From an uncultured Blautia sp. (GTDB lineage Bacteria > Bacillota > Clostridia > Lachnospirales > Lachnospiraceae), in assembly GCA_934408705.1 (NCBI GenBank), contig CAKRVL010000005.1:1-57232 (forward strand): DNA of 57,232 bases, in the 5' to 3' direction. The notes under the pieces are model-generated. The model had not been told where the DNA came from and ran no database searches. It saw only the letters and a list, made by a program, of their open reading frames with translations. Made by a program: the position numbers and the translations under genes. Below, one piece after another: positions 8,898-54,226 of this stretch (position 1 is its first letter; each line of letters opens with the position of its first letter).

Positions 8898-8996
8898 AAG
8901 CGGACATTCCAGGTCCGCTTCGCTACTTGCTCATGAACGCAGTCACTTCGCGATCTGTCAGTGGGAGCTGAAAGCTCCCACTGACATAACGTTCAC
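8898..8996 (-). repeat. 3'-UTR structured repeat, family B copy 1 (short form)
   Basis: It begins a few bases 3' of the LicD stop codon (9004). On the forward strand: head hairpin AGCGGAC (8899-8905)/GTCCGCT (8913-8919); closing stem TGAACG (8934-8939)/CGTTCA (8990-8995); perfect 11-bp inner stem TCAGTGGGAGC (8958-8968)/GCTCCCACTGA (8974-8984). The second large inner arm seen in copies 2, 3 and 5 is missing. It lies between two co-oriented genes of one operon. Confidence 0.85.
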
Positions 8997-9003
8997 AGTA
9001 ACA

Positions 9004-11283
9004 CTACATGCACTCTTTCACAAACTGCTGCAGTTCTTCTATGCTTCCGTATTTTTTCAGCCACAGGTCCATAAAATCAGAAGCATCTCCTGCTTTGGCA
9101 TAAACCGAAGATTTACGGCTTCCCTCATATAAATCCGTGAGAAAAATCCTGGAAAGCTCAGTCCTTACAAATCCGTTTCCATTCTGACCAAATGCCTTCA
9201 TATAATTCTCGAAAGCAGCTCCGGTCTGTCCCTCTTTTCTTTTTATATCTCCGATCACCTTATATACCTGAGCGCGCTTATCCTTACGGATCTGACTATC
9301 CTTCGCACGCTCTGCCAGCCATTCCAGCTCATCCGGCTCGCTGGTATAAACCAGCTCTGTCCGAACCTTCGCAAGCTCACCAGGATAACCGAGACGCTCC
9401 CATGCCTTTGTCAGGGCACGTTTGTAAATCTGAATATCATTATTGTCACCAGGACTTTCTGTGCTCTCCTTTTCGATCCGTTCCTGAATCTCCTGAATAA
9501 TTTCCTCCATCTCAGAGCGTGTTTTGGCGACACTGGCTCTTGCCAGATAATAATACTCCCGTACTGCCAGATTCTCTGGTAAAAGCCGGTACCACAGCCC
9601 CATAAGCCGCATTGCCCCATCCTTCTGTCCAAAATCCAGAAGCTGCTGACAGGTCTTCACTGTCTCTTTGCCATAAGGATTCAGGAATTTATCCAGCTCC
9701 AGCTGAGTGATTCCATTATTCGTCTTCTCACGGGCATCTGCAAAAACCTCAAGGGCATCTGCACATCTGCCCCTCATCCAAAGCAGCTCTCCTTTATATT
9801 TCAGGAAATATCCATCCTCCGGGAAGTCCCGCAACGCCTCGTCCATATAAAGCTCAGCTTCCACAATACCAATTCCATTGCGTGCACGCTCCATAAGAAA
9901 ACGGCTTTTAAATTTCACAAAGCCCGGAACCTTTGGATAACGCTCCATCAGCGGCTCCATTGTCTCCTCTGCCTCACGGAAGCGCTTGAATTCATAATCA
10001 CAGACAGCTCTTCTGAAAAGCTCAATATCGGCCTTCAGGCGGGCCATTTCTGTAGGGAAGGTACCTGTCTGCTCCTTCACAACCAGCATTCTCCAGGCTT
10101 TACCTATCCGCTCTGTATAAACAAGAGTCAGCATTGCTGCATAAAATAACTCGTCACTGATCTCCAGCAAAACCGGATGATAAAAGGCATAGATTCCTCC
10201 GAAATCCTCCCTGCCGATAAATGCAGCACTAAGCTGGACCTGAAAATATTTGGTGAATATTTCATTTAATTCTGTAAAATCACGCTCTTCCAACAATTGC
10301 TTTACACTGCGCTTGCTGCTGGAAATATGCGCCTCCAGATCCATCACTGTACTCTTCGCCAGCAAAAGATTGCGCTTATGCTGAAGACGGTGATTCCGCT
10401 TCGCTCCTGCCAGGGCGTATATCTTTCTCCAGATTGAATCCCTGCGCAGCTTGCCCTTACGGATTCCAGGCAGATAATCGTCACGAAGCTCTCTGTAGGT
10501 GATTCCCTCTACTGTAACCGCATCATGTGATTCTCTCTCTCCATGAGGCGGAATATAAGACCACTCATCTCCATAATGCCAGATCAGATAATCACTCATT
10601 CTGTTAGGCACCATCACCCTGGTGTCCTCAAAATTCATGTATTTCACAGGGAACATCATGTCCTTATCAAAAAGGAACGGACAGCCACCCCAGCGCATGG
10701 CATAGCGCGGACAGTCAGCCTCCTGATAAGAGTACATGATCTTCTCCAGTTTCTTCAAAGTACGGTCTTTTCCCAGAAAGGTGTAGGAAAACAGCCAGCG
10801 CAGATAAGTGGTCACAGGGATCTCCCATCGCGCCCCATAAACAACTACAAGATTTACCAATTCAGAATAGATCATCATATGAGTACGATACTTCTCATAT
10901 TCTCTGTCATCTGCCGGAATAGGATCCAGAGTCAGTACATCAATGATCTCACCGGCACTGTCACGCCCGATGATCTGATGCTTATGCAGGGCACAGCTGT
11001 CTGTGGCAACATATCTGGGGAAGGTATTGGTATAATTACGATCCACATCCACGCACTGAAGGGCGCGGTGCTCCGGAAGCACAGAGCCTGATATCTCCAC
11101 AAGCTTATTCCAGTCATCTCTTGGCATATAGATATCCACGTCATCATCCCAGGGTATGAAGCCCTCATTCCTGACAACGCCGATAGCTGTTCCTCCTGCC
11201 ATAACATATCTCAGATTATTCTCTTTACAGATCTCATCCAGCTCACGAAAAAGCTGCAACAGATGTTCCTGTTTCTCTGTCAT
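9004..11283 (-). CDS. LicD family phosphotransferase with long helical C-terminus
   Basis: A 759-aa LicD protein. Residues about 5-50 hold the family motif: LDEICKENNLRYVMAGGTAIG, then GFIPWDDDVDIYM, with the acidic cluster D46-D48 and D50 intact. LicD enzymes transfer phosphocholine or another phospho-alcohol from a CDP carrier to cell-surface glycans. After about residue 290 the chain is a long helical region resembling tetratricopeptide repeats (for example EAEETMEPLMERYPKVPGFVKFKSRFL), probably a scaffold. GAGAGGATAACC precedes the ATG. Only 3 bp separate it from the cytidylyltransferase fusion upstream, which could supply its CDP-activated donor. Donor and acceptor are unknown. Confidence 0.87.
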   Translation of the reverse strand: MTEKQEHLLQLFRELDEICKENNLRYVMAGGTAIGVVRNEGFIPWDDDVDIYMPRDDWNKLVEISGSVLPEHRALQCVDVDRNYTNTFPRYVATDSCALHKHQIIGRDSAGEIIDVLTLDPIPADDREYEKYRTHMMIYSELVNLVVVYGARWEIPVTTYLRWLFSYTFLGKDRTLKKLEKIMYSYQEADCPRYAMRWGGCPFLFDKDMMFPVKYMNFEDTRVMVPNRMSDYLIWHYGDEWSYIPPHGERESHDAVTVEGITYRELRDDYLPGIRKGKLRRDSIWRKIYALAGAKRNHRLQHKRNLLLAKSTVMDLEAHISSSKRSVKQLLEERDFTELNEIFTKYFQVQLSAAFIGREDFGGIYAFYHPVLLEISDELFYAAMLTLVYTERIGKAWRMLVVKEQTGTFPTEMARLKADIELFRRAVCDYEFKRFREAEETMEPLMERYPKVPGFVKFKSRFLMERARNGIGIVEAELYMDEALRDFPEDGYFLKYKGELLWMRGRCADALEVFADAREKTNNGITQLELDKFLNPYGKETVKTCQQLLDFGQKDGAMRLMGLWYRLLPENLAVREYYYLARASVAKTRSEMEEIIQEIQERIEKESTESPGDNNDIQIYKRALTKAWERLGYPGELAKVRTELVYTSEPDELEWLAERAKDSQIRKDKRAQVYKVIGDIKRKEGQTGAAFENYMKAFGQNGNGFVRTELSRIFLTDLYEGSRKSSVYAKAGDASDFMDLWLKKYGSIEELQQFVKECM

Positions 11284-11286
11284 TGG

Positions 11287-12618
11287 TTATCCTCTCTGGT
11301 TTATGATTTCCAGAATGTCTGCCAGTGTCTCTGATTCCTCATTAAAAAGTCTGGTACATTCTGTTCTCTCGTCACTGATCATAATAAGCAGCTCCTGTAA
11401 AAGGTAACGAAGCCCGTTTCCTTCAAAGTTAAAACAGAACCGCTTTAAGCCCTTGCTATCATCAATTTTCGCCTCAAAGTATCCTGTATTCCACCAGTCT
11501 CCCGGAATGGTAACACGCCCCTTCGTGCCGATCACAACAAATTCGTCCTCCACATCAACTGTGGTGCCAATCTCAATAGTAGCAAGCGCATCCTTATATT
11601 TCATGGTAATCATATCGTAAATGCAGTTTCCGGACTTATCCTTCACTACATTGGACTTCACTTCCCGGTAATCCTGCCCTAATATCTTGATAATGGCACA
11701 TAAGGGCAGCACCGCTGTCTCCTGAAAGCTTCTCCCACCTTCAAAGTGATCCTGGGAAATAGAGCATTTCACACACACAATATCTCCCACAAGCGCACTG
11801 TGAGTCTGCCATACAAGCTGATTAAACGCCCTGAGATACACCAGATTGATCTTCTCAACGAGAAGCACCTGCTTCGCTGCTGCAAGGGCAAACAGATCCT
11901 TCAGCTTCTCCTTATTCCCAGTCATGGGCGCATCGCTGATCACATATTTACCACGCTCCAGGGCTCTGCGGATATATTTCTCCCGTTTCTTCTGTTCGGT
12001 CTTAATATATACCATATCAACCTGGGACAAAAAGCAATCAAAGCCTTCTTCCCATTCCCTGGTATCCCCTTTCACACTGTAATAGGAGTCCAGCTCATAT
12101 TTGTCACAAAAGGACTCTGCCGCCGTTGCATTCTCAGAAAAAACACATTCCACATGGAGGCCGCTGACATATTTAGTCTCCCATACAATGCCATTATCCT
12201 GGTCATCATCTGTGACTACGCCCACTGTATAGGTAGTGCCCTCCCCACGCAGCTTGGTGCTGGAAATATTCTTGGTTCTCTCCAGATATTTCACATCGCA
12301 GTAGTTCTTCAGATAATCAAACTTGCCCCTCCAGTCAGAGCCCAGAACAAGAAGGTCTATCTTATACTTAATGATATCACTGAGCTTCTGTCCCTGATAT
12401 TCCTCTATAATGATCTCGTCAGCAAAACCGGTACGGCGCACATTCTCAATTCTCTTCAGAAGACTGTCACGCACATTCAGCTTACCACGTTCTATATCGT
12501 AGCTCTCGCTGGTCACGCCCACGATCAGATAATCGCCCAGTGCCTTCGCTCTTTTTAAAATATTATAATGCCCTTCGTGGAACAGGTCAAAGGTTCCATA
12601 GGTAATTACTTTTTTCAT
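11287..12618 (-). CDS. Cytidylyltransferase (TagD-type) fused to Gfo/Idh/MocA-like domain
   Basis: A 443-aa two-domain protein. Residues 1-130 are a TagD/GCT-type cytidylyltransferase: VITYGTFDLFHEGH (HxGH at 14-17), a GSDWRGKFD segment, and ERTKNISSTKLR. These enzymes make CDP-glycerol or a related CDP-alcohol. From about residue 131 a second domain resembles the Gfo/Idh/MocA oxidoreductases (VEKINLVYLRAFNQLVW, VGDIVCVKCSIS, GTKGRVTIPGDWWNTGYFE). Its first strand-turn reads VGVVTDDDQDNG instead of GxGxxG, and the usual EKP is EKI, so NAD binding may be weakened or lost. AGGGGAAA precedes the ATG. It opens the operon with the LicD gene. A single polypeptide could couple oxidation or reduction of a polyol to CDP activation. 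Confidence 0.82.
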   Translation of the reverse strand: MKKVITYGTFDLFHEGHYNILKRAKALGDYLIVGVTSESYDIERGKLNVRDSLLKRIENVRRTGFADEIIIEEYQGQKLSDIIKYKIDLLVLGSDWRGKFDYLKNYCDVKYLERTKNISSTKLRGEGTTYTVGVVTDDDQDNGIVWETKYVSGLHVECVFSENATAAESFCDKYELDSYYSVKGDTREWEEGFDCFLSQVDMVYIKTEQKKREKYIRRALERGKYVISDAPMTGNKEKLKDLFALAAAKQVLLVEKINLVYLRAFNQLVWQTHSALVGDIVCVKCSISQDHFEGGRSFQETAVLPLCAIIKILGQDYREVKSNVVKDKSGNCIYDMITMKYKDALATIEIGTTVDVEDEFVVIGTKGRVTIPGDWWNTGYFEAKIDDSKGLKRFCFNFEGNGLRYLLQELLIMISDERTECTRLFNEESETLADILEIINQRG

Positions 12619-14934: not shown

Positions 14935-14960
14935 GATAAATTCTCCTTTATCAAAATTAT

Positions 14961-19789: not shown

Positions 19790-20791
19790 TTATGCCAGGC
19801 CGAATTCTTCCAGTAATTTATCTCGATATGCTCTATCTGTACTGGCTTTTAACAGTTCACTAATACGATCTGACAAAATAAGTTTCTCGCTTAAGGCCGC
19901 CATTTTCTCCTGGCCTTCCTGTCTTCCTTCTTGTCTTCCTTCTTGTCTTCCTTCTTGTCTTCCTTCTTGTCTTCCTTCTTGTCTGCTGTCGCGCAGCATT
20001 TCTTTAATTGCCTTACACATATCAAACTCGCCTCCTTCCGTTTGTACTTTTGTTTTGATTAATTGCAGATTCCGGATTCCCGCCATTACTGCCAGAAAAT
20101 CATAGGCATCTTCTGGTAACGCAGCAAAGATTTCCTGATTTTCTTCCATGTATGCTTTTAACTTTGTCCTGTCATTGGTTCTTTGTAAAAAGCCACAAAC
20201 CTGACGTAAATCTGTTCGAAACCATTCTTCATTGGAAAAATGACGCATATCAAAAATCAGAATTGATTTTTCTGTAAACAGCCTCTTTAGCTCTTCTGGA
20301 AATTTTTCTGTATGAAATAAATCATCCATTTTTCTTGCTGCTTTCCAACGTTTCTTTCCAAAATATATTATAATATGAATAACCGGGTAAAATTTATCCT
20401 GGCAAGTAATTCCGGAAAGAAATGCTTCTTTGTTTTTCAAATCCTGAGCTTCTTTATGTATTTTTTGTAAGCCTTTCCACTGGTTATAATAATCAGTTCC
20501 TTTTTCATGCAGCACTCGCACTGGCATCACATAATGCTCAATTGTCTGCCCTTGAATCATAAGCCGAAATTTCACCTCACCGACTGTCACCATCATAGAT
20601 AAATCCAAAGTATTCTCTACTGCAGATATTCTATTATTCTTTCTCGAAACATTATGTAAAACCGGATTTAATTCCTGCATGTCACTTTCTCTGACAATCT
20701 GCTTTCCATGAAATATAACACCGTTGAGTAAATCTGCAACCCGAGCAAAATCCCGAAAACACTCAATTGATGTGGCGTTCTCTTCCTTCAT
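19790..20791 (-). CDS. Rpn-family recombination-promoting nuclease / transposase_31-like protein
   Basis: A protein of 333 aa resembling the Rpn/PF04754 group often annotated as putative transposases. Recognisable features are the overall opening (ECFRDFARVADLLNGVIFHG), a central YPVIHIIIYFGKKRWKAA strand and the C-terminal low-complexity run. Near the end are six tandem QEGR units encoded by a 12-bp DNA repeat (about 19915-19985), then a helical tail. AGAGGGGA precedes the ATG at 20791. Rpn proteins are PD-(D/E)XK nucleases linked to DNA breakage and mobility. The central nuclease acids are hard to place here, so activity is uncertain. Confidence 0.7.
   Translation of the reverse strand: MKEENATSIECFRDFARVADLLNGVIFHGKQIVRESDMQELNPVLHNVSRKNNRISAVENTLDLSMMVTVGEVKFRLMIQGQTIEHYVMPVRVLHEKGTDYYNQWKGLQKIHKEAQDLKNKEAFLSGITCQDKFYPVIHIIIYFGKKRWKAARKMDDLFHTEKFPEELKRLFTEKSILIFDMRHFSNEEWFRTDLRQVCGFLQRTNDRTKLKAYMEENQEIFAALPEDAYDFLAVMAGIRNLQLIKTKVQTEGGEFDMCKAIKEMLRDSRQEGRQEGRQEGRQEGRQEGRQEGQEKMAALSEKLILSDRISELLKASTDRAYRDKLLEEFGLA
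19915..19985. repeat. 12-bp tandem repeat in the Rpn gene
   Basis: The unit CTTCCTTCTTGT is repeated about six times and encodes QEGR units. Because the unit is a multiple of three, slippage changes protein length without breaking the frame. Confidence 0.85.
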
Positions 20792-21880: not shown

Positions 21881-22088
21881 AATGATACCAGTGTCAAAAG
21901 GTCAAAAAGCTGTTCGTGCTTGCACGATAAGGCTTTTGAACTTGGGACACGCCAAATATGAGAAAGTAGCGATTTACGCAGTAAATCAGCGGATTTCGAA
22001 TATTTGGAGGATTGCGGGAGCAGCCGTAGCTGCGTAGCAATCCGGGTATCAAATGAGTGTCAAAAGACCTTTTGACACTCATTTCATT
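21881..22088. repeat. Composite palindromic intergenic repeat, family A copy 3
   Basis: It contains, in order: GTGTCAAAAG border, TTCGTGCTTGCACGA hairpin, GATTTAC (21971-21977)/GTAAATC (21981-21987) hairpin, GGATTGC (22009-22015)/GCAATCC (22037-22043) hairpin with inner GCAGC/GCTGC, and a final palindrome of GTGTCAAAAG/CTTTTGACAC (22056-22079). It is the reverse-complement layout of copy 1. With family B copy 2 it fills the 476-bp gap between the lipoprotein and the second Rpn gene. Confidence 0.8.
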
Positions 22089-22115
22089 TAATTCCTGGTT
22101 ACACTTAATGTTTGT

Positions 22116-22276
22116 AAAGCAGACATTCCAGGTCCGCTTCGCTACTTGCTCATGAACGCAGTCGCTTCGCGATCTGTCAGTGGAATCTGAAGGCTCCCAC
22201 TGACATAAGCATCCCCCTCATCCGCCGCTTAGTGCTCCGCGCACTTGAAACGGGGGGAATGCTTATCTGCGTTCAA
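22116..22276 (-). repeat. 3'-UTR structured repeat, family B copy 2 (full length)
   Basis: Head hairpin near 22118-22138; closing stem TGAACGCAG (22153-22161)/CTGCGTTCA (22267-22275), a perfect 9 bp; small TCGC/GCGA hairpin; inner arm around TCAGTG/CACTGA; second arm AAGCAT...AATGCTT with an apical GTGC/GCAC hairpin. The stop codon of the Rpn gene (22263) and its last codons lie inside the element, so the repeat supplies the protein's C-terminal residues. Confidence 0.85.
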
Positions 22277-23342
22277 GTTCCTTTTTTAATCGCTGAATTT
22301 CCAGCTCTGCTGCATCCGCGCGAACTTTCTCTGCGTCTGCGCGCTCTTTCTCTGCATCTGCGCGCTCTTTCTCTGCATCTGCGCGCTCTTTCTCTACATC
22401 TGCACGTTCTTTCTCTGCGTCTGCGCGCTCTTTCTCTACATCTGCGCGCTCTTTCTCTCTTTCCGTATTTTGTCTTTCAGCCTGAATGTCCATTTTCTCC
22501 ATATTTTCAAATAGATATCCCATTCCCCGACCTCCAATCTCGCCCATCATTTCCTCAGCTTCGTCCACGGGCACATTCATCTTTATTAGTAAAGCCCATA
22601 AAATTTTTTGGTAAATTTCTTTTATTGCTTGCGGGGCATTGCCATAAATAGAATTTACAAGATCTTCCGATAGCTTTCGGAAATTTTCACAATCCTCTGG
22701 TGTCTGTATTTTGTTGATCATCATGATCAGAGACATCTCGTCTCGTTTCATACTGAGTTCTTCATTTGTATATTGGCTGACACTTACTACCTCATAAGAA
22801 AAATCCGGAATATATTTTCCCATCTGTTCCGCAAATTCTATACGGTCTTTCAAATGGAAATCTGCCGTCCACTTTTTACTCCCCTCATAATAAACGATAG
22901 GAATAATCAGAGGATAACGGAAATCCTTCCGCTTACTACTATTTTTTATTTTTTTATCCTGAGTCTTTTTATAATCCTGCCAAATAACAGTCATATATCT
23001 GAGAAGCTGCATTGCCACATCATAGTCGATATCACTTTTATGTTCGATGAGAGAGATGACATAAACTTCCTTTTCAAGCATTCCCTCTGTGTCCCGAATG
23101 TATACCTTTTTTATAGTATCGGCTTCATATTCCACTCCAAGAAATGCCCGATATTTGCCAGATACATCCGTGATATCTTCCGGCTGGACATTTGCAAACA
23201 ATGGAATATTTGTGTAATTTCTCAGAAATTGACTTGCAAGAGTACTGTTTTTAAAAATTTCCCGACTGTTTACATCCCTTACGTGCATTCCGGAATGATA
23301 GATCGTGTCTCTTTTTCTTTTGCTCTGTGTTTTTCTGCTCAT
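22263..23342 (-). CDS. Rpn family recombination-promoting nuclease with heptad-repeat tail
   Basis: A protein of 359 aa. The N-terminal nuclease domain has RDVNSREIFKNSTLASQFL, AFLGVEYEAD and YVISLIEHKSDIDYDVAMQLLRYM. The E-H-K in IEHKS fits the PD-(D/E)XK core of Rpn nucleases (E. coli RpnA to RpnE), which raise recombination and are linked to phage defence. The C-terminal about 60 residues are six or so heptads of the form EKERADA/EKERADV, a likely coiled coil. AAGGAGG precedes the ATG. Its last codons are provided by a family B repeat. It is distinct from the Rpn-like gene at 19790. Confidence 0.85.
   Translation of the reverse strand: MSRKTQSKRKRDTIYHSGMHVRDVNSREIFKNSTLASQFLRNYTNIPLFANVQPEDITDVSGKYRAFLGVEYEADTIKKVYIRDTEGMLEKEVYVISLIEHKSDIDYDVAMQLLRYMTVIWQDYKKTQDKKIKNSSKRKDFRYPLIIPIVYYEGSKKWTADFHLKDRIEFAEQMGKYIPDFSYEVVSVSQYTNEELSMKRDEMSLIMMINKIQTPEDCENFRKLSEDLVNSIYGNAPQAIKEIYQKILWALLIKMNVPVDEAEEMMGEIGGRGMGYLFENMEKMDIQAERQNTEREKERADVEKERADAEKERADVEKERADAEKERADAEKERADAEKVRADAAELEIQRLKKELERR
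22310..22452. repeat. 21-bp tandem repeat encoding EKERAD(A/V) heptads
   Basis: Variants of a 21-bp unit (core GCGCTCTTTCTCTGC on the forward strand) repeat about six times at the 3' end of the Rpn gene. Units are near-identical, so recombination or slippage could change the coiled-coil length in frame. Confidence 0.8.
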
Positions 23343-23515
23343 TAATCCTCCTTATGCAGGAAACGTTTCACAGATCAAAAGATATTTACATATTTATAGT
23401 AGCATGACAAATTTCAGAATACAAGATAAAAGAGTAATAGATTATCATCCATACTGTATTCCCATAGCTTGCAAAATCACATCCATTTAGTAATTAATTC
23501 TCGCCCAATTTGAGT

Positions 23516-23675
23516 CAAGCGGATATTCCAGGTCCGCTTCGCTGCTTGCTCATAACCGAATGCTGCTTCGCAGCTTATCAGGAGTGACTTGCACCACTCC
23601 TGATACAAACAAGTCCCAACCCACTGCTTATTGCTTTGCGCAACCCCAGCAGGGGACTTGCTTAATTCGGTTATA
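23516..23675 (-). repeat. 3'-UTR structured repeat, family B copy 3 (covarying form)
   Basis: The head hairpin AGCGGAT/GTCCGCT (23518-23524, 23532-23538) is as in other copies, but the branched body has different bases with the same pairing: closing stem ATAACCGAAT (23552-23561)/ATTCGGTTAT (23665-23674); GCTGC/GCAGC (23562-23566, 23570-23574); ATCAGGAGTG (23577-23586)/CACTCCTGAT (23595-23604); CAAGTCCC (23610-23617)/GGGACTTG (23653-23660); apical TTGC/GCAA. It ends 5 bp before the stop of the reverse-strand recombinase gene (23680). The rest of the gap 23343-23515 shows no gene. Confidence 0.88.
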
Positions 23676-23679: not shown

Positions 23680-25077
23680 CTATTGAACACCCGAATTCCC
23701 TATCTGGAAGTCAGCACTTTGCAGACAGGTGTCATCCATAAATTTAATTCTTAAATTGCCACAGTCATCTATCAAAACTTCCCGAATCAGCATTCTTGTC
23801 AGGTTTTTCACATCCTCCCACTGTGCATATTTTCCTGTCAGCTCCTGCAGTTGTTCCGCACGAATACTCTCGAGGGCGTCACCATTCTCTATTGCATTTC
23901 CCCATTCTGTGAGCAGATTTTCCCGTTGCTGTACCAGCTTTTTCCAGGCATCTCCAATAGCGGCAGTGATGTGCTCTTCCTCAACGGGCTGGCTGAAGCA
24001 CATATCCCCCTTCTTTCCTGTATTCTTATATTTCCAGATGCTTTTTCCTGACTTTTTTGTTATTTTTCCACCGCAGCACGCGCAAAAAAGCTTCCCATAA
24101 TATGGCTCCATTGTACAGCTTCCAAGCTCGCGAATATGGCGGAACTCCCGCAATTCTTCCAGTCTTTTTAACTCCAGCTGGACCGCATCCCATGTCCTTC
24201 TTTTAATAATAGCTTTGTGATTATTTTCCACATAATATTGCGCCAATCTGCCATCATTTGACCGTATTTCCCGTGTCAAAAAATCCTGGACGTAATATTT
24301 CTGCATCAGAAGATCACCCTTATAAGCTTCATTTCGCAGCATACGCAAAATGGAAACAGCCGCCCAGCGAGGCTCCCCATGCACGCCGGGAATTTTTTCC
24401 TGATTAAGCCGCCTGGCGATTTCTGAAGGCTGCCAGCCCTCCAGAAATTCCCGAAAAATCCGCCGGACCGTCTGAACCTGATCCGGATTAATAACCAGTC
24501 CTCCCTTTTTATCCTTATCATATCCAAGAAAGCATTCTGTATTAATATGAGGGATTCCCTGCTGAAAGCGGGAACGGATTCCCCATCTTGTATTTTCCGA
24601 AATATTTCGTGATTCTTCCTGGGCGAGACTGGAAAGAATAGTGAACAAAAGCTCGCCGGAGGATTCCATGGTATTAATGCATTCCTTTTCAAAAATCACA
24701 GGAATTCCAAGGCTTTTCAGATGTCTTGCATAATGGAGACAGTCACGGGTATTCCGGGCAAAACGACTAATAGATTTGGTGATCACCAGGTCTATTTTTC
24801 CCTCTTCGCAGGCTGAGATCATCCTTCGAAAGCCTGTCCTTTTTCTGGTTCCTGTACCGGAAATACCCTCATCTGAAAAAATTTCAACCAGCTGATATTC
24901 CTCTTTTTCACCAATATATTCCCTATAATAAACCACCTGGTTGATCAGGGAACCTAACTGTTCCTCCTGCTCTGTAGAGACACGGCAGTAAGCCGCCACC
25001 CGGAGCTTTTTCAGATCTCTTTCTTTGCCACTTTTATTCATCTGGTTTGGTGGAATAACCGTAAGCTTCTTTTCCAT
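23680..25077 (-). CDS. Large serine recombinase (resolvase/invertase family)
   Basis: A site-specific DNA recombinase of 465 aa. The catalytic domain starts LRVAAYCRVSTEQEEQLGSL with the nucleophile Ser in RVST, and ITKSISRFARNT is the conserved arginine segment. A recombinase domain (KKGGLVINPDQVQTVRRIFREF, RMLRNEAYKGDLLMQK) and a zinc ribbon (CACCGGK...MCFSQP) follow. AGGAGG precedes the ATG, which overlaps the end of the next recombinase gene by 44 bp. It is the last of three overlapping genes. No phage or conjugation genes are nearby. It could invert or excise local DNA, such as the adjacent pilin array; that is inference. Confidence 0.92.
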   Translation of the reverse strand: MEKKLTVIPPNQMNKSGKERDLKKLRVAAYCRVSTEQEEQLGSLINQVVYYREYIGEKEEYQLVEIFSDEGISGTGTRKRTGFRRMISACEEGKIDLVITKSISRFARNTRDCLHYARHLKSLGIPVIFEKECINTMESSGELLFTILSSLAQEESRNISENTRWGIRSRFQQGIPHINTECFLGYDKDKKGGLVINPDQVQTVRRIFREFLEGWQPSEIARRLNQEKIPGVHGEPRWAAVSILRMLRNEAYKGDLLMQKYYVQDFLTREIRSNDGRLAQYYVENNHKAIIKRRTWDAVQLELKRLEELREFRHIRELGSCTMEPYYGKLFCACCGGKITKKSGKSIWKYKNTGKKGDMCFSQPVEEEHITAAIGDAWKKLVQQRENLLTEWGNAIENGDALESIRAEQLQELTGKYAQWEDVKNLTRMLIREVLIDDCGNLRIKFMDDTCLQSADFQIGNSGVQ

Positions 25078-26272
25078 TTATCTGCGCCTCCTTTCCTATG
25101 TATACTGGAAAATTAATGGTACAAAGGGAAAGTAATTTCTCATCCGGGACACGTATTCCTTTGCAAAAAGCTTTTCCTTTACGGCTGAGCAGATCACAAA
25201 TCCACCACACAGAACCATTTCTGGCTATGATTCTTCGCAGCCTCGAGCCGCAATATTTGCAAAAAATCCGGTCTTTGTATGGATAGTTTACATAAGTTAG
25301 CCGAGGAATTTCCGGACGTACATGGGCAATCCGCTTTTTATGCGACTGGATATTCTCATGCCGGATGGGGGAAAAACGAACTGCTTCCAGACCTTTCTGA
25401 GCTTTTTCCCATAACTCCTCAGAGACAATTGCCGCATGATCATTCCGAATGTAATACATAGGCTTTTCCCCTTTGTTTTTTACAAGTCTGCGCTGATTAT
25501 CCACATAATAACGCAGACAGATATAATCTCCTTTATATGCATGATTGTGCAGGATCCGGCTCACTGAAGATGGACTGAACTGTTTTCCGTTCTGGGTTTT
25601 TACACTGTTTTCATTAAGATATCTTGTGATTTCACATATCCTCCACCCTTCTGCTGCCATCTGAAAAATCTGCCGCACAAGCTCTGCATTTTCATCCGGC
25701 ATAAGAACTCCATCCTCATTTTTCCTATAGCCCAGGCATCTCTGAAGCTGTCTCACCGGCTGGCTTTTTTCATATTTCCGACGAATAGCAGTCTGCATCA
25801 GCCACCTGGAATTCTCACTTTCTTCCTGTCCGAAGGCTGCCAAAAGAGTGAGCAAAAGCTCTCCCTCCTGAGACATTGTGTGTATCTTCTGAAGCTCAAA
25901 ATACACATCAATTCCAAGCTTTTTCAGCTGTCTGGTAGTATTCAGCACCGTATCAGTATTGCGGGCAAAACGTGTAACAGATTTGGTGATAATCTGCCGG
26001 AAAAATCCTTTTCCCGCATCCTGAAGCATCTGGTTAAAGCCCGGTCTTTTCTCCTTATAGCCTGAAATACCGTAATCATAATAGACCTTCGTCAGTCTGT
26101 ACTCCGGATGTTTTTCTATAATTTTTTCATAATGTGTAATCTGATTTTCCAGAGAATCCAGCTGATGGGGATGTGTTGTTGACACCCTGCAGTAAACTGC
26201 CACAAGAATCACATTCTGAGCTTCTCCTTCTTTACAAAAGGATAAAACGCTGGGCTTTTTGCTTTCGCTCAC
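25034..26272 (-). CDS. Serine recombinase (resolvase/invertase family)
   Basis: A second recombinase of about 412 aa. Catalytic domain VILVAVYCRVSTTHPHQLDSL with the Ser in RVST, RQIITKSVTRFARNTDTVL, recombinase domain VLMPDENAELVRQIFQMAAEGW, and a CKYCG...CD zinc-ribbon region. The open frame extends to a GTG at 26335 inside the upstream gene. I prefer the GTG at 26272 because GGGAGGCGAGG lies upstream of it; this still overlaps the upstream gene by about 41 bp. It overlaps the downstream recombinase by 44 bp, so all three genes are translationally coupled and probably work together. Confidence 0.9.
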   Translation of the reverse strand: MSESKKPSVLSFCKEGEAQNVILVAVYCRVSTTHPHQLDSLENQITHYEKIIEKHPEYRLTKVYYDYGISGYKEKRPGFNQMLQDAGKGFFRQIITKSVTRFARNTDTVLNTTRQLKKLGIDVYFELQKIHTMSQEGELLLTLLAAFGQEESENSRWLMQTAIRRKYEKSQPVRQLQRCLGYRKNEDGVLMPDENAELVRQIFQMAAEGWRICEITRYLNENSVKTQNGKQFSPSSVSRILHNHAYKGDYICLRYYVDNQRRLVKNKGEKPMYYIRNDHAAIVSEELWEKAQKGLEAVRFSPIRHENIQSHKKRIAHVRPEIPRLTYVNYPYKDRIFCKYCGSRLRRIIARNGSVWWICDLLSRKGKAFCKGIRVPDEKLLSLCTINFPVYIGKEAQINGKEAYGYSTKPDE

Positions 26273-26762
26273 TTCGCCTCGCCTCCCTTCTTTTCCGATT
26301 ATAGGCTGCCATTTTTTGTTCACTGGAGTATGCACTGCTGCCCGTCAGATTCCGGGAAAGAAATCTCCGAGCGCAGGCGTATTCACGCCCCTTCATGCCA
26401 AGCTGATTGAGCCAGATACGGAAAAGATATTTATCACCGGCTGGCTGCTCTGATTTTTTCTGAGAACGGGAAAACTGCTTTTGTCTGGCTGCCATTTGAA
26501 TAAGCTTTTCCACAAATACTTCATACACAGCCAGTTCTTCTGCCGATATTGCTTTTCGGGAAAATACAATGGATTCATCCTGAAGCTCCAGCTCCGGAAG
26601 AGCCTTTTCCAATATAGACCGCTTCTCGTCTATGATCCTGCGCAGATTGGAAAAAGTCTGGGAGGAAAGCTCTGATAATGAAATGCACAAATCCTGCTGA
26701 ACAACCTGCTGTGCGGTATTTTGCAATGTGCTCTGTTGTTGAAATATTATTACCTGCTTCAT
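26232..26762 (-). CDS. Small protein leading the recombinase operon, function unknown
   Basis: A 176-aa protein with no domain I recognise. It is largely helical and basic at the C-terminus (NRKRREARRSERKQKAQRF), suggesting nucleic-acid binding. A Q-rich opening (MKQVIIFQQQSTLQNTAQQV) precedes a middle region DEKRSILEKALPELELQDES. AGGAGGTGG precedes the ATG at good spacing. It overlaps the next recombinase gene and heads the operon, so an accessory factor (directionality or DNA-binding) is plausible. No similarity claim is made. Confidence 0.7.
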   Translation of the reverse strand: MKQVIIFQQQSTLQNTAQQVVQQDLCISLSELSSQTFSNLRRIIDEKRSILEKALPELELQDESIVFSRKAISAEELAVYEVFVEKLIQMAARQKQFSRSQKKSEQPAGDKYLFRIWLNQLGMKGREYACARRFLSRNLTGSSAYSSEQKMAAYNRKRREARRSERKQKAQRFILL

Positions 26763-32034: not shown

Positions 32035-32086
32035 TTCGACCTGAAAACGTCCTAAAAACATCATAACCAGGCGGATAGATCTGCAT

Positions 32087-32124
32087 AAAGCGGACATTCC
32101 AGGTCCGCTTCGCTACTTGCTCAT
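32087..32124 (-). repeat. 3'-UTR structured repeat, family B copy 4 (head only)
   Basis: Only the invariant head is present: AGCGGAC (32089-32095)/GTCCGCT (32103-32109) and the linker CGCTACTTGCTCAT. The branched body is absent. It starts 3 bp after the stop (32128) of the LytTR gene, in the same orientation as the other copies. Confidence 0.85.
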
Positions 32125-33515: not shown

Positions 33516-35284
33516 TACTGTGCCCCTCCTTCTGTCTCAGTTTCTTCTGTCCCGGCTTCTTCTGTCCCGGCTTCTCCCATTCCAGCTTCTTCTGTCCCGG
33601 CTTCTTCCGTCACGGCTTCTTCCGTTCCGGTTTCTTCCATTCCGGCTGCAGTCACCGGATCCAGCAGATAGATCACGATCTGGCCTGTTACCTTATCCGG
33701 CTGAACCTGTTCTTCACTGTTGCCATCTGTCATTGCAGTCATCACATTACAATAGTCTACAATTGACTCCTTCTCAAGTAACTGCACCAGACTGTTAATG
33801 TCTGACAGGTTCTCCCCCGTTACCGGAAGAGTCAGCTGATTACCGCTTACACTCCAGCTGCTTACCGTTACCTTCGGGAAAATCACGTCCTTCATCAGAT
33901 GCAGCACATCCGGCCGGTTCAGATAGCTAAGCTCATCCGCCGTCAGTCCCTGATAAGTATAATGTGCATATGTATCCTGAAGATCTCCGAAGCTATCAAT
34001 ATAAGCAGTAATATCATCTACCTGCTTCTGCAGCTCCGAAACCATAGACTCCTCTTCGCTCATTTTCACAAGTCTGTCTGCAACTGCAACTTTTCCGATT
34101 ATTCCAGCAGCTACAATAATAGCACCAATAGCCGGAACAGCCACAAAATAATGCTTTTTCTTCACGCCTGCAAGCGCAAGGTTGATCTGCTTCTTAGACA
34201 CATGTCCGGTACGCCCAAGGGCAACACCTGCTGCCAGCATCCACAACGCAGACACCTCAGATACATTATTTCCCCGCAGGCCCTCCAGAAGATCCTGTGC
34301 ATCATGAATTCTCACATCCAGATTTTCTTCAAGGCTCTGGCGCATGGTTTCAACAGGAGCACCACCACCGCAGATATAAATATCCTCCAGATGGCTGTCC
34401 GGATTACTGAACTGATAGAAATTCAGCGCTCTCATCAGCTCCACACTGATCTGGGAAAAAGCATCCCGGCACACATCACTGTGGATACAGTCCTCATGGT
34501 TCGCCAGCAGCCAGGTATGTGCCAGATGAATATCAATATGGTAGTTATCTGCAAGCAGCTCCTCCACCTGTCCCATACCACGTTCGATCACACGGGTAAC
34601 CTGATGTCTGTCTCCCTTGAAGATCAGAAGACGGCAGGATGTGCTTCCCAGATCCAGGATTCCGTATTCCTTATCCATGTCCCCATCACTGTTCAGCTTA
34701 TAATGAAGAAGATTCTCGCAGGCAGATACCTCCGGTGCCACGAAAGTAAGCTTAAGACCTGCCTTTCGTGCCATAAGCCGAAGGTCATCTATTGCCTCCA
34801 GCGGCGCAGCAGCGGCCAAAAGCTCCATCTCACCACGATTCTCCTGCTGCTCTTCATTTTCCTCCGAAGCTTTACGCTTCTTCTTTTTCGAAGCTTTCTT
34901 CGTCTTTTTTCCCCCGGGCACTTCTCCATCGAGATTCCAGGAATAATCAAATACATATTTCTTCAGTTCATCTGTAATATAATCACGGAATTCATAAGGC
35001 AGATTATAAACCAGCTGCTCTGCTGTCATCTCCGGCATTGTCACATTACGCAGAAAGCACATTCCTGAAGACACCACAACAGCCGCTTCCTTACAGCGGA
35101 TCTTGTTCTCCTTCATGGTTTTGCGGATCAGTTCTCCTGTAGTCTCCACAGAAACAATCCTGCCATCTCTGACAAGCCCCTCCGGCATCTGCGCAGAAGC
35201 CGTCTTCACAATATTTTCGCCCTTCATAAGCACCAGCTTCAGCTGATCCTTACCTATATCAATTCCAAGACATGATTTTGCCAT
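33515..35284 (-). CDS. pilM: PilM-PilN fusion type IV pilus assembly protein
   Basis: A 589-aa protein. Residues 1-375 are a PilM-type actin-like ATPase (CLGIDIGKDQLKLVLMKG; ILDLGSTSCRLLIF; ICGGGAPVETM). A lysine-rich insert lies at about 127-150. A membrane helix (about 395-415, FVAVPAIGAIIVAAGII) is followed by a coiled coil and a PilN-like periplasmic domain. PilM and PilN are usually separate; here they seem fused. The tail repeats GTEEAG-type units coded by about 15-bp DNA repeats. It sits next to the prepilin peptidase gene in the operon. I keep the symbol pilM for the fused protein. Confidence 0.83.
   Translation of the reverse strand: MAKSCLGIDIGKDQLKLVLMKGENIVKTASAQMPEGLVRDGRIVSVETTGELIRKTMKENKIRCKEAAVVVSSGMCFLRNVTMPEMTAEQLVYNLPYEFRDYITDELKKYVFDYSWNLDGEVPGGKKTKKASKKKKRKASEENEEQQENRGEMELLAAAAPLEAIDDLRLMARKAGLKLTFVAPEVSACENLLHYKLNSDGDMDKEYGILDLGSTSCRLLIFKGDRHQVTRVIERGMGQVEELLADNYHIDIHLAHTWLLANHEDCIHSDVCRDAFSQISVELMRALNFYQFSNPDSHLEDIYICGGGAPVETMRQSLEENLDVRIHDAQDLLEGLRGNNVSEVSALWMLAAGVALGRTGHVSKKQINLALAGVKKKHYFVAVPAIGAIIVAAGIIGKVAVADRLVKMSEEESMVSELQKQVDDITAYIDSFGDLQDTYAHYTYQGLTADELSYLNRPDVLHLMKDVIFPKVTVSSWSVSGNQLTLPVTGENLSDINSLVQLLEKESIVDYCNVMTAMTDGNSEEQVQPDKVTGQIVIYLLDPVTAAGMEETGTEEAVTEEAGTEEAGMGEAGTEEAGTEETETEGGAQ
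33535..33660. repeat. Low-complexity tandem repeat in the PilM tail
   Basis: About eight imperfect 15-bp units containing CTTCTTCTGTCCCGG or close variants encode the acidic TEEAG repeats. Unit number could change in frame. Confidence 0.75.
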
Positions 35285-50009: not shown

Positions 50010-52853
50010 ATGAAGTCTTTTAAAGTCAGCATCATTTTACCGGTATATAACGTGGAGAAATACCTTGAGGCATGTCTGGATAGCTTACTGGCGCAGACTC
50101 TCGAGGAGATAGAGATCGTGGCTGTTAATGACGGCAGTACAGATGGAAGCCTGCAGATTCTGCAGGCTTATCAAGCGTTACATCCAAAGAAGCTTTTTAT
50201 CTTTTCTACAGAGAATCACGGAGTAAGCCGGGCGCGAAACTATGGCTTCGCACACTCCCACGGAGAATATGTCTGGTTCGTAGACAGTGATGATTACGTG
50301 GAGCCGGATGCCTGCCGTCTTCTCTATGAGAAGGCCACCTCAGACGGGAATGACCTGGTTCTTTTCCGTTATTATAATGTGGATTCTGAGACCGGCGAGC
50401 GCAAGGAATACCTGACCTCCTGCCATAATCAGAATTTCCGGATCGCAGACAAGCCTTACGAGCTTCCGGCAATTTCCCCTTATCCCTGGATCAAATTCAT
50501 TCACAGGGATTTGTTTAATGGACTTTTCTTCCCAGAGGGAATTCGCTTCGAGGATCTTCCTGTAGCCTATCTTCTGGCGGTAAAGGCGCGATCTATCGGA
50601 TATCTTGATCAGTGCTTCTATAATTACCGTAAGAATGTGGGATTTCTCAGCCGCCTCACACCTTCCACCCTTCATATTAAGAATGCTATCATTTTCATGA
50701 AGGAAGAGATGGAGAAGCAGGGACTGTTTGAGCAGTACCGGACTGAGCTGGATTTTATTGCAGTCCGCCACTTTTTCTACCGTTTCTGGAAGCTTCTGAC
50801 CAATTATGAGACGGGGCTGAAGGAATTGAAGCTTCAGCTGATAAATGAGCTTTTCGATTACATAGAGTCCAATATTCCGGACTGGGAGAATAATCATTAT
50901 GTCCGTTACTCTCTGCCCCCTCATATTGTACGACTGCTCTGCCTCTACGGTTCCAGACAGGAAATGATCTCTTTCGTGGAGGCTTGTAATGGTATGACTG
51001 ACCAGCAGCAGAAGGCCTGGATCAAGGAGTATAAGCTATCCCACAGAGTATCACCCAGTTATCAGCCTGCCCAAATGCTCCACCGGGAGAAAACTGCTGC
51101 CCAGTTTTATGGCTTTGCCTACACCGGAAGCCTGGCTCCGGATCCTGAGCAGATCCTTCTGGAGGCCAGCCGTGGAAAGGAGATTCCTACCTGGATCCTT
51201 AAGCTGCTTGTATACCTTATGAAGAATTTTGGGGAACACCATATTATTGTTTCCCTTACCGAAGAAAAGCACTCACTGTTTCTGGCTCTTCTGAACCGTT
51301 ATTTTTCGGGGAAGGGCTCTCTGCCTGAGAATATTACTCTGGTATGCCCGGACAGTGAGGATTATGGAAAAGCTCTTGCCCTTTCTGGCTATGTGATCAC
51401 GGACGGACCTTTACCCTACTATTTCCGCAAAGAAGAAGGACAGTTTGTGCTGCTATACTGCGGACATAATCTGTATCCGGAAACTGTTCTGAATACACCT
51501 GATTCCACAGCGGATACCGGACTGTGGCAGCATACTATGTTTATGGCAGATTGCTTATACTTTAACAATGTACAGAACCGGGATATTTATCTGCAGGAAT
51601 GCATGACAAGACATATCTGCAAAACACCTTATATCATAGGAGCTTCAGCAGATATCCCTATAATTCCGGACGAGTCCCACAGGGACAGACTCCGCCGCAG
51701 TCTGCAGATGGAGAATATGCAGACAATTCTGTATGCCCCGCTGCTTCCAGGATCCTATATTGCGGACACAGAGCAGACCTTCCGTAATTTTATGGCTTCT
51801 CTTTATATATTTGACCGGGAGCTTGCCCAGCATCAGATTTTATATCTCCATCTGGATCACGAACAGGAAATTGATTTTTCAGAATTTCAGCACATAAAAG
51901 AAATGCCGAAGGATTTCAATGTGCCTGATTTTGCTGCTGCATGCGATATTTTTATATCAGATTATCATAATGCCCTTTCTGCCAGATACAGTACCGGAAC
52001 ACAGGTTATACGGTTCCTGTGCGGAACATTTCAGGAACACAGAAGCACACTGACAGATAATTCAACTGCCACAGATAGCTTTTTCCCGGAGCATCCCGTT
52101 TTCGACAACGTACCGGAGTTAGTACAATATATCGGACAGTCAGAGTCTTTCCAGAGCAGCACACCTGCGGATACAAGCTCTAAGGACATCTGCTATCTCC
52201 CGGATGTTGTAGACTCACTCCTGAACGGACGGCCTCTTCCCTATTATGAGGAAGCATCTGGACAGCCTTCCGCACCAGGTACCCGCGTCCTGTTTTTTAC
52301 AGGGCGAAAGCTTTCACAGAATCTGATCCGGGATTTTAATGCACTGGCAGCGCAGACACCTGAGAAGGAATTCTGGCTTGCATACAACGATTTCCGAAAT
52401 ACAGACTCAGCCAAATATCTGGCCCAGCTGTCCCCGGAGTGCTCCTGTCTGCCTTTGAAGCCAGATCCGGAGAAGGGTAAGCGTTGGAAGCTTGCCAGCG
52501 TACTTACCAGCAGAATGGGGCTTTTCTCCCTTTACCCATTGTCCCATATCCTGGACTTAGGAAAGGAAGAATATAAGAAATGTCTGGGAAATGCACAGTT
52601 TGATGAAGTGATCATTACTTCCACAGACAGTATCAAGACCGTTGCCACACTGCTGGCAGCCGCTCCGAAGGCGTCCTATACCTTTGACACCTTTAATCCG
52701 GAGCGTTACAGTACCTCCAGACCTTACAGACATCAGATTGGATTTCTGTGCAGGTTGCTGAAGGACACCGGAAGCCTGGAATTACCGGCCGAGCTTACCG
52801 GCCTGAAGCTTGCCCAGAGCTCCGGCGGAAATAAAGATAAAGGAACTTTATAA
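50010..52853 (+). CDS. Glycosyltransferase GT2 fused to TagF-like glycerophosphotransferase-type domain
   Basis: A 947-aa protein. Residues 1-240 are GT2: VSIILPVYNVEKYLEACLDSL, NDGSTDGSL, and SHGEYVWFVDSDDY. A middle region (about 380-700) resembles CDP-glycerol glycerophosphotransferases: YVITDGPLPYYFRKEEGQ, ILYAPLLPG and CDIFISDYHNALS. The expected TWHG is replaced by CGHN and DYSS by DYHN, so this part may be inactive. A third region (760-947) begins TRVLFFTGRKLSQNLIRDFN. I chose ATG 50010, with AAGGAG upstream, over TTG 50007. It may build or decorate a teichoic-acid-like polymer. Only the GT2 part is certain. Confidence 0.75.
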   Translation: MKSFKVSIILPVYNVEKYLEACLDSLLAQTLEEIEIVAVNDGSTDGSLQILQAYQALHPKKLFIFSTENHGVSRARNYGFAHSHGEYVWFVDSDDYVEPDACRLLYEKATSDGNDLVLFRYYNVDSETGERKEYLTSCHNQNFRIADKPYELPAISPYPWIKFIHRDLFNGLFFPEGIRFEDLPVAYLLAVKARSIGYLDQCFYNYRKNVGFLSRLTPSTLHIKNAIIFMKEEMEKQGLFEQYRTELDFIAVRHFFYRFWKLLTNYETGLKELKLQLINELFDYIESNIPDWENNHYVRYSLPPHIVRLLCLYGSRQEMISFVEACNGMTDQQQKAWIKEYKLSHRVSPSYQPAQMLHREKTAAQFYGFAYTGSLAPDPEQILLEASRGKEIPTWILKLLVYLMKNFGEHHIIVSLTEEKHSLFLALLNRYFSGKGSLPENITLVCPDSEDYGKALALSGYVITDGPLPYYFRKEEGQFVLLYCGHNLYPETVLNTPDSTADTGLWQHTMFMADCLYFNNVQNRDIYLQECMTRHICKTPYIIGASADIPIIPDESHRDRLRRSLQMENMQTILYAPLLPGSYIADTEQTFRNFMASLYIFDRELAQHQILYLHLDHEQEIDFSEFQHIKEMPKDFNVPDFAAACDIFISDYHNALSARYSTGTQVIRFLCGTFQEHRSTLTDNSTATDSFFPEHPVFDNVPELVQYIGQSESFQSSTPADTSSKDICYLPDVVDSLLNGRPLPYYEEASGQPSAPGTRVLFFTGRKLSQNLIRDFNALAAQTPEKEFWLAYNDFRNTDSAKYLAQLSPECSCLPLKPDPEKGKRWKLASVLTSRMGLFSLYPLSHILDLGKEEYKKCLGNAQFDEVIITSTDSIKTVATLLAAAPKASYTFDTFNPERYSTSRPYRHQIGFLCRLLKDTGSLELPAELTGLKLAQSSGGNKDKGTL

Positions 52854-52858
52854 ACATT

Positions 52859-52898
52859 ATGATACCAGTGTCAAAAGACCTTTTGACACTCATATCAT
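52859..52898. repeat. Palindromic intergenic repeat, family A copy 5 (minimal)
   Basis: ATGATACCAGTGTCAAAAG (52859-52877) and its near complement CTTTTGACACTCATATCAT (52880-52898), only 2 bp apart. The inner hairpin modules are absent. It lies between two co-oriented glycosyltransferase genes, 6 bp after the first one's stop. Confidence 0.8.
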
Positions 52899-52922
52899 AT
52901 TATAGAACACGAAAGGATTTCC

Positions 52923-54068
52923 ATGAAACTAACTACTATCATCCCAGTTCACAATGCGGAGAAATATATTACTGCCACCCTGGACAGTGTGCTGAACCAG
53001 GATCTGGGAAATCCGGATGAGCTGGAGGTTATCTGCGTAGATGACGCATCTACTGATGCCTCTGTCTCCCTCATAAAAAAATACCAGCAAAAAGACTCCC
53101 GCATCCGTCTTTTCCTCAATGAAAAGACGGAATACGCAGGAGCCTGCCGTAATAAAGGAATCGAAGAAGCAAGGGGTGATTATATCCACTTTCTGGATGC
53201 TGATGACCTTGTGGAAGAGGGGGCCTACAGGAAATATCTGTCTATTGCCGAGCAGGCTGATGCCCACATAGTAAAGGGCTGCGCCGTCTGCTTCGACAAT
53301 GAGACCGGCGAGCTTTCCCACACACCCCTTTTCGCTTTGTCCGATGTGCCCGCTGAGGCCTTCGATAAGCCTCTGACCTTCAGCCAGATGCCGGAGGTGT
53401 TCAGCCACATCAGCGTAGTTCCCTGGAATGCCATTTATAAGCGGATCTTCCTTCTGGAAAAAGGTCTCCGCTTTAACAACCTGATCTGTGTCAATGACCG
53501 TTCCTTCTACAGCGAAGCCGTATTTACCGCAGACAGGATCTGGCTCACCCATGAACAGATCGTACGTTACCGTGTGAATAACAGCGCATCCCTTGTAGGA
53601 AACCGTGCCCGGAACTTCCACTGTGAATTTGATTCCTGGCAGCTGATCATGGACCAGTGCGCCAGATATAACATCCAGGGCCGCCAGCTTGCCATTGTCA
53701 TGGAGCGTGAGCTGATCGATATTTTCATCTGGTACCGCAAATACAAAAATATCCCGGAGATTTCCCAGGATATTATTTCACAGACCAAAGAATTTGCAAA
53801 AAAGCTGGACATCACGCCTCTCGAAGGGTTCCCTCCAGCTTTTAAGTGGTATTACGATTATCTCACATTTATGCCGGAATTTGATAACCTTACCAAAAAT
53901 TATAACAATATTAACATTTTCAAAAAACACGCAAAAGAGCTGATGCCACAGTGCGCCACTCTTTCTGAATTTCGCCAGAGAATACAGGAAGGGCCTGCAT
54001 CAGCTGCAAGCCCACACTCCAGCCAGCCTGGTTTATTCAGAAGATTGCTGTCCCGGATTTTCAGGTAA
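52923..54068 (+). CDS. Glycosyltransferase family 2
   Basis: A 381-aa GT-A glycosyltransferase. TTIIPVHNAEKYITATLDSVL, VDDASTDASVSLIKKY, and ARGDYIHFLDADDLVEEG give the donor-binding and DxD region. A long C-terminal helical region follows. AAAGGA precedes the ATG. It is the second gene of the GT pair and may work with the protein at 50010. A family B repeat begins right at its stop. The sugar is unknown. Confidence 0.9.
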   Translation: MKLTTIIPVHNAEKYITATLDSVLNQDLGNPDELEVICVDDASTDASVSLIKKYQQKDSRIRLFLNEKTEYAGACRNKGIEEARGDYIHFLDADDLVEEGAYRKYLSIAEQADAHIVKGCAVCFDNETGELSHTPLFALSDVPAEAFDKPLTFSQMPEVFSHISVVPWNAIYKRIFLLEKGLRFNNLICVNDRSFYSEAVFTADRIWLTHEQIVRYRVNNSASLVGNRARNFHCEFDSWQLIMDQCARYNIQGRQLAIVMERELIDIFIWYRKYKNIPEISQDIISQTKEFAKKLDITPLEGFPPAFKWYYDYLTFMPEFDNLTKNYNNINIFKKHAKELMPQCATLSEFRQRIQEGPASAASPHSSQPGLFRRLLSRIFR

Positions 54069-54226
54069 AGCGGACATTCCAGGTCCGCTTCGCTACTTGC
54101 TCATGAACGCAGTCGCTTTGCGATCTGTCAGTGTGAGCTGAAGGCTCCCACTGACATAAGCATTCCCCTCACCAGCCGCTTAGTGCTCCGCACACTTGAA
54201 GCAGGGGAATGCTTATCTGCGTTCAA
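54067..54226 (-). repeat. 3'-UTR structured repeat, family B copy 5 (full length)
   Basis: Head hairpin AGCGGAC (54069-54075)/GTCCGCT (54083-54089); closing stem TGAACGCAG (54104-54112)/CTGCGTTCA (54217-54225), perfect; TCGC/GCGA hairpin; inner arm TCAGTG/CACTGA; second arm AAGCATTCCCC (54158-54168)/GGGGAATGCTT (54204-54214), perfect 11 bp, with apical GTGC/GCAC. It ends 10 bp from the stop of the reverse-strand GGDEF gene. Confidence 0.88.

Follow-up and report, generated by a model that had tools for sequence, protein, structure and literature searches.

A covarying branched repeat from an uncultured Blautia, probably a non-autonomous single-strand DNA transposon

The stretch of DNA analysed here, referred to as the window, comprises 57,232 nucleotides from an uncultured Blautia sp. 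(assembly GCA_934408705.1, contig CAKRVL010000005.1, positions 1 to 57,232). Its minus strand carries five copies of a folded repeat, numbered 1 to 5 along the window, and the repeat recurs in related genomes. Taken together, the data show that the element family is mobile and that copy orientation follows the replication fork and not the neighbouring genes. Most probably, the repeat is a non-autonomous transposon of single-stranded DNA that works like IS200/IS605. What is novel is the size and covariation of its folded left part, together with its abundance in these bacteria and a left pentamer that pairs into a stem of the element. For Lachnospiraceae and related Clostridia, searches of open-licence literature turned up no description of such a repeat, as judged by titles and the starts of abstracts. 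Genomes and loci are cited below by G and L numbers.

Architecture and covariation

In minus-strand orientation, the parts of a complete copy are: a left pentamer (TTGAA or TATAA in the window); one side of stem A; arms B, C and D; the other side of stem A; ATGAGCAAGTAGCGA; the head hairpin; and a terminal TTTAC or TTGAC. Stem A encloses the three arms in a four-way shape, and arm B is long, with an inner hairpin. The complete element measures ~157 nt plus the 5-nt left flank, and three of the five window copies (2, 3 and 5) are complete. At the outermost pairs of stem A, bases of the left pentamer are matched by bases within the element, TAA by TTA or GAA by TTC.

When folded as single-stranded DNA, copies 2, 3 and 5 adopt one shape (z = -6.6, -8.6 and -9.1), and none of 200 shuffles was equally stable. 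This bears out the branched body that a first-pass annotation, made from the letters of the window, had assigned to these copies. The compensatory stem changes it had noticed in copy 3 are also real: although its stem bases differ, this copy forms 54 of the 57 model pairs, 50 of them Watson-Crick and 4 of them G-T.

The further proposal that the fold is selected is supported by two alignments. In the first (A1; 24 complete or nearly complete copies, with a structure drawn on L051 as reference), pairing holds in 92.9% of cells, and 27 pairs show a double change, compared to 14.0 in shuffles; the covariation score reaches.280, as opposed to.121 in shuffled alignments and.081 for the best slide. 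In the second (A2; 44 matches from later loci, fitted to the model, with some places repeated from A1 and one row a weak fragment), the score reaches.303, with shuffles at.105. The covariation is strong, on a statistic other than R-scape and with shuffle controls that ignore the relatedness of the copies. Double-changed pairs in the head hairpin number one in A1 and none in A2.

Strong covariation is also what would be expected of a structured RNA, either a 3' untranslated region or a small RNA, that spread as a repeat and is selected as RNA. Consistent with a folded transcript, G-T cells outnumber A-C cells on the element strand (59:24 and 45:8). This excess fits folding of the element strand; however, strand-specific deamination, of C on the exposed lagging template, could give the same result. 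In addition, the element has no Rfam match at gathering score across the whole window, or for copies 2 and 3 at E values up to 5.

Some copies depart from the standard architecture. A variant head is found at L282-L285 (G042, G038), where in G038 a hairpin GGTTACCGGCAA/TTGCCGGTTACC around GTAGCGAAGCGGA replaces the usual one. Copies cut down to the left part or to arm B, some of them in tandem, occur at L043, L045, L046, L183 (10147-10493) and L238, and arm B may be an independent module.

Mobility and the insertion target

That the repeat is a mobile element, as had been proposed, follows from near-identical copies amid unrelated flanks in G016 and G090 and from empty sites. Across 43 later copies, the left edge carries T at positions -1 and -2 in all 43 and at -3 in 40, with flanks otherwise unrelated; at the right edge, T comes next in 31 of 43, and by eye there is no target duplication. 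Empty counterparts were identified for L151 (L242 and L175) and, among relatives, for L274, L276 and L278; that for L269 is seen in junction-crossing blast spans only. The L278 copy splits an open reading frame (ORF), and matches cross its junction without the element in eight of nine genomes searched and stop short in G053. The homologous ORF in L321, uninterrupted at the L278 junction, encodes 113 aa of the ArsC family (6.2e-6).

With TTTAA counted as target, the length of the L278 site equals that of all eight junction-crossing homologs, and at L274 the same holds for one homolog, the only one of two tried that was aligned. In four further genomes the match at L274 is broken, with ~110-200 extra bases. 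Because homologs at the junctions are 74-96% identical, the exact insertion sites can only be inferred; insertion 3' of TTTAA without duplication is the best fit to few sites in diverged relatives. Other candidate pairs of filled and empty sites were rejected: L103/L208 appears by eye to be a deletion remnant, L104/L246 aligns poorly, L175, L165, L104 and L244 are likewise not clean, and L112/L055 and L191/L204 are pairs in which both members are filled.

Left pentamers and their internal partners were tallied in 139 rows with a filter that itself favours pairing. Among the 30 commonest combinations, TTTA with TAT accounts for 55 rows, TTTG with CAT for 5 and TTTA with unpaired GTA for 8, the remainder being scattered. 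By this tally, target-partner pairing rests mainly on two lineages.

Copies are oriented by the replication fork

The first-pass annotation had placed the repeat at the 3' ends of genes, always in the same orientation. As a rule this did not survive a broader sample, in which 124 of 171 model hits were used; one duplicate place, hits to arm B only, weak hits (< ~30 or 39 bits) and the L035-L046 hits were dropped. In the element frame, the two neighbouring genes are ++ for 54 copies, -+ for 23, -- for 20, +- for 18 and otherwise for 9; 20 of the 124 thus lie antisense to the genes on either side. A stop codon lies within 15 bp of 18 of 64 copies, compared to 9.2 expected from uniform placement, a roughly twofold excess. 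The gene caller took longest ORFs only, and 24 of 106 cases 'inside ORF' went unused, as they change with the place at which the element was removed from the sequence. Gene-end targeting was thus rejected on the contexts (124 copies) and the stop distances (106 copies).

What does predict orientation is replication. On the main contigs of four near-complete genomes in which dnaA was located, 62 of 67 copies (a subset of the 124) point with the fork, its direction being assigned on the assumption that the terminus lies opposite the origin. Of the five exceptions, two are within ~3% of the assumed terminus, two are near the origin (G049), and one is a high-scoring copy (G062). The neighbouring genes of these copies are themselves mostly on the leading strand (91 of 134). 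Copies nevertheless follow the fork in seven of nine cases where both neighbours are lagging-strand genes, as well as in 31 of 33 where both are leading. GC skew is positive on the element strand at 104 of 124 loci (71 of 74 outside G041 and G069), and the 43 later copies lie on the G-rich strand in 13/13 cases in G016, 17/18 in G090 and 8/12 in other genomes. As the folded strand points in the fork direction, it has the sequence of the lagging-strand template.

These observations argue against selection as RNA: orientation is set by the fork and not by adjacent genes, some copies being antisense to both and most keeping to the fork between lagging genes. An RNA identity is therefore unlikely, and a role in 3' untranslated regions is not needed, because orientation follows the fork and the proximity to stops is about twofold above uniform placement.

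Integron-like attC sites following captured genes would also be folded, covarying single strands, and every window copy follows a gene. Against this, no recurrent cassette was found, the largest clusters of neighbour genes being ordinary families, and the absence of a gene-orientation rule, together with the fork orientation, largely contradicts such an arrangement. The R boxes of attC sites have the consensus RYYYAAC / GTTRRRY, to which near-identical copies show no fit by eye. The probability left to this explanation, judged on neighbouring genes and orientation with no search made for an integron integrase, is close to nil.

Genes of other mobile elements were compared in the same way. TnpB genes in three of the fork-tested genomes are co-directional with the fork in 37 of 43 cases, and a control with rve (DDE) transposases gave 4 of 7, too few genes to be informative. 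Reverse transcriptase genes share the orientation (25 of 27), which raises the possibility of retro-mobilisation by a group II intron reverse transcriptase, with entry at lagging-strand DNA like class C introns. The T-rich left edge is compatible with this. However, G015 has 44 model matches and no reverse transcriptase match, both ends are fixed in near-identical copies, and no Rfam intron match occurs in the window. Terminator targeting, a trait of class C introns that had been suggested by eye, was ruled out by control sites: terminator-like left flanks are found at 9 of 114 copies compared to 116 of 1140 controls. Retro-mobilisation is highly improbable.

The search for a mobiliser

Genes with the Y1 domain (PF01797) are present in 21 of 23 model-positive genomes and 8 of 20 model-negative genomes, a comparison uncorrected for relatedness in which the positives were drawn from 40 blast-positive genomes and the negatives were the 20 listed by the blast survey. 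Resident insertion sequences, whose insertion points were read from where alignments begin, appear to use matching sites. Among 30 TnpB loci, TTTAA directly precedes the apparent insertion point in 10 of 11 loci of one TnpB family; L081 and L082, which bear TnpA, appear by eye to have inserted after TTTAA; and IS605-type elements apparently insert after TTGAA at all six distinct sites where the left end can be read (8 of 12 rows). The same two pentamers, TTTAA and TTGAA, stand to the left of the element in its two groups.

No adjacent mobiliser emerged when 750 neighbouring ORFs were clustered, the largest clusters again being ordinary families. Some copies lie near TnpB genes: L304 has a full copy ~290 nt upstream of a TnpB frame, close to the contig end, and L080/L292 have a degenerate piece past TnpB.

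One family of movers that had been put forward is RAYT (TnpA-REP), which would mobilise or bind the repeat as a REP/REPIN element, with GTAG as guide. Consistent with this proposal, the copy number is high, and in copies 2 and 5 GTAG stands 2 nt ahead of the 8-bp head hairpin. This part of the likeness fails in copy 3, which has GCAG in place of the GTAG of ATGAGCAAGTAGCGA. Moreover, the search for Y1 genes gave a frame of RAYT length (~230-270 aa) in just 2 of 23 carriers (G038, G100) and in 3 of 20 non-carriers (G013, G021, G043). No head was found beside a Y1 gene in 20 Y1 loci, a search that lay outside the flanks of the RAYT-length genes of G038 and G100. Finally, copies run along the fork as single units rather than as inverted pairs. 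A REP/RAYT identity is accordingly rather improbable.

Proposed mechanism and points against it

If the repeat is a non-autonomous single-strand transposon, its movement would likely involve: exposure of the lagging template as a single strand, so that folding of the body places the left boundary next to the right-end hairpin; cleavage after the left and right pentamers by a Y1 (HUH) TnpA acting in trans, with formation of a circle; and insertion of the circle elsewhere, after the same pentamer. A single Y1 protein or several could be the putative actor. The way stem A holds the left pentamer resembles guide-to-target pairing at IS200/IS605 ends, so that each of the two element groups could have a target of its own. 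The slight surplus of copies near stops may be what selection against insertions inside genes has left.

Several results weigh against this reading. With respect to the target, the L276 junction deviates from three homologs by +1, +1 and ~-3 nt, that of L151 deviates by 3 nt, and the two paired pentamer types occupy just 60 of 139 tally rows. With respect to orientation, skew agreement within G041 and G069 is 33 of 50; the reverse transcriptase counts mean that fork orientation is not specific to Y1 elements; and an IS605 family of Halanaerobium is described, in the cited excerpt, as having no strand preference (PMC7290912). With respect to the mover, G001 and G014 have copies and no detected Y1, the right end of the element is on no insertion sequence in the 20 Y1 loci or 30 TnpB loci, and resident insertion sequences end in TTCAC, TGTCAC or GTCAA rather than TTGAC. 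A model match is absent from 13 regions of 20 kb around Y1 genes, two of which (L111 and L114) hold 44-49 nt blast fragments of the element. The 40 Y1 proteins recovered include no TnpA family present throughout the carriers examined: G041, with the most copies, has one Y1 of one family, and those recovered from G016 are of another.

One bolder possibility, which remains doubtful, is that the element encodes its own choice of target, the left pentamer being held in stem A by an internal partner. The four-way junction would then be a selected structure of DNA, not RNA, that positions both ends for the transposase, and the repeat would constitute its own class of transposon, with a covarying single-stranded architecture of ~160 nt. 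Here, the mover could be another single-strand recombinase or several unrelated TnpA proteins.

Covariation is often taken as a sign of functional RNA, and here a strongly covarying family behaves like single-stranded DNA at the fork. The element is thus a caution to searches for new RNAs and offers a case in which selection on DNA structure can be tested. Target choice, too, is open to direct testing, since the two groups of the element differ in left pentamer and carry stem partners to match.

Spread among relatives

A search with PilB identified the relative L001 (genome G001; 93% identity). Among 145 relatives of G001, 40 have a blast match and 34 a match to the covariance model R1, the latter under stricter filters with 19 candidates scored per genome; the model search that had been suggested therefore found the family well beyond the window. 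Full model searches of eight genomes (E <=0.01, 150 candidates scored in each, partial copies included) gave 40, 54, 45, 44, 143, 83, 64 and 3 matches. Abundance thus reaches 143 model matches in a single genome, and the element has broken up an ORF at least once.

Arrays of several copies with arm-B pieces within 4 kb occur at L117 (8032-11534; G015) and L183 (6942-10689; G062), both ~25 kb from dnaA; by eye, that at L117 is close to parA/parB-like ORFs. Human faecal records deposited as phage contain matches, seven with copy 5 as query and eight with copy 3. These include MT835545, MT835578, MT836195 and other unannotated 'Bacteriophage sp.' records of one Mexican faecal set, which are possibly bacterial DNA or scaffolds. 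Plasmid records gave no blast match to copy 5, and exact head patterns had no match in a genome contig collection (29 nt) or a viral contig collection (19 nt).

Copies in the window

The five copies with their common head and linker stand as first annotated. A 19-nt head probe finds five matches at <=3 mismatches, with 0 expected from 100 shuffles, and R1, built from an alignment that included three of these copies, recovers all five (E 4e-42 to 2e-8). One extra R1 match is weak (31 nt, E 0.04) and lies on the opposite strand within copy 5.

All copies are minus-strand. Copy 1, left flank included (8895..8997; 83.1 bits with R1), retains the closing stem TGAACG/CGTTCA, arms C and D, the linker GAGCAAGTAG, the head and the end TTTAC, and is devoid of arm B. 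Copy 2 (22114..22271; 140.5 bits) is complete and ends in TTTAC; its left pentamer TTGAA (22272..22276) is a putative insertion target. Copy 3 (23514..23670; 165 bits), also complete, belongs to a second sequence group (ACCGAAT/ATTCGGT) and ends in TTGAC; its pentamer TATAA (23671..23675), one base off TTTAA, is likewise a presumed target. Copy 4 (32085..32124; 37.2 bits) is reduced to linker and head hairpin, ends in TTTAT, and is absent from a 72%-identical stretch of L001. Copy 5 (54065..54221; 140.2 bits) is complete and ends in TTTAC, and the pentamer TTGAA at 54222..54226 would be its target.

The reported distance of 0-15 bp from gene stops holds for four copies, which lie 3-15 bp from the stops of LicD (9004), recombinase (23680), LytTR (32128) and GGDEF (54236) genes. 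Copy 2 instead contains the Rpn-like stop (22263), its left part forming the final codons and stop of a Transposase_31 (Rpn/YhgA-like) ORF. On the plus strand, a glycosyltransferase ORF has its stop (54066-54068) within the right end of copy 5, where GTAAA, the complement of TTTAC, supplies the TAA. With a simple ORF caller (>=90 aa), coding amounts to 42.7 kb on the minus strand and 8.2 kb on the plus strand, and minus is the G-rich strand in all three thirds of the window (skew +0.12 to +0.16). Since this strand is both gene-rich and G-rich throughout, constant association with reverse-strand genes is weak evidence by itself, and the apparent rule of gene ends and orientation is accounted for.

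Other repeats accompany the copies. Two Clostridiales-1 RNAs (RF01699) are at 21883-22051 (+) and 1547-1715 (-), with 132 and 117 bits. A 58-nt inverted match of 100% identity links 5825-5882, probably a partial Clostridiales-1 copy, with 21882-21939. The palindrome AGTGTCAAAAGACCTTTTGACACT occurs at 22047-22092, adjoining Clostridiales-1 RNA and copy 2, and at 52858-52903. Tandem repeats within ORFs are at 22289-22479 (21 bp), 19902-19996 (12 bp) and 33523-33657 (15 bp); the 21-bp repeat falls at the C-terminus of the Rpn-like ORF, directly ahead of copy 2. Copy 3 follows the first of two adjacent resolvase/recombinase-family ORFs (23680-26335, minus strand).

Comparison with known systems

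Clostridiales-1 RNA resembles the element as a structured repeat with two places in the window, but neither place is matched by R1. The remaining comparisons refer to known systems as described in excerpts of the cited papers. The reRNA of ISDra2-like insertion sequences, which have a TTGAT target (PMC8612924), is likewise structured, forms the right end and is of similar length. Unlike reRNA, the element has no TnpB attached: blast of 30 TnpB loci gave one full copy (L304) and elsewhere short matches.

REP/REPIN elements with RAYT (PMC3733652, PMC6006769) are similar in having GTAG ahead of a hairpin, many copies and a mostly intergenic location. The element differs in its 160 nt, its branched body and its disposition as single units along the fork, and 21 of 23 carriers have no RAYT-length Y1.

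The closest likeness is to PATE and other non-autonomous IS200/IS605 elements. We do not claim membership of PATE or REP/RAYT, because the transposase was not found and no one TnpA family unites the carriers examined; nor is the element filed as PATE, because ends shared with a resident insertion sequence were sought and not found. ISDra2 inserts 3' of TTGAT on the lagging strand without target duplication (PMC8612924), and a Sulfolobus IS605 has the predicted insertion site TTTAA (PMC11043419). Similarly, the element's insertion fits a fixed pentamer without duplication, and its lagging-strand orientation is that described for IS608 and ISDra2. Like a PATE-like copy from Halanaerobium (PMC7290912), it is short and gene-less, with hairpins toward both ends. 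PATE ends are common to resident insertion sequences, whereas in the loci examined none shares those of the element. It also has a strand preference, unlike Halanaerobium IS605, and, unlike PATE, its left part is a covarying four-way junction of ~120 nt.

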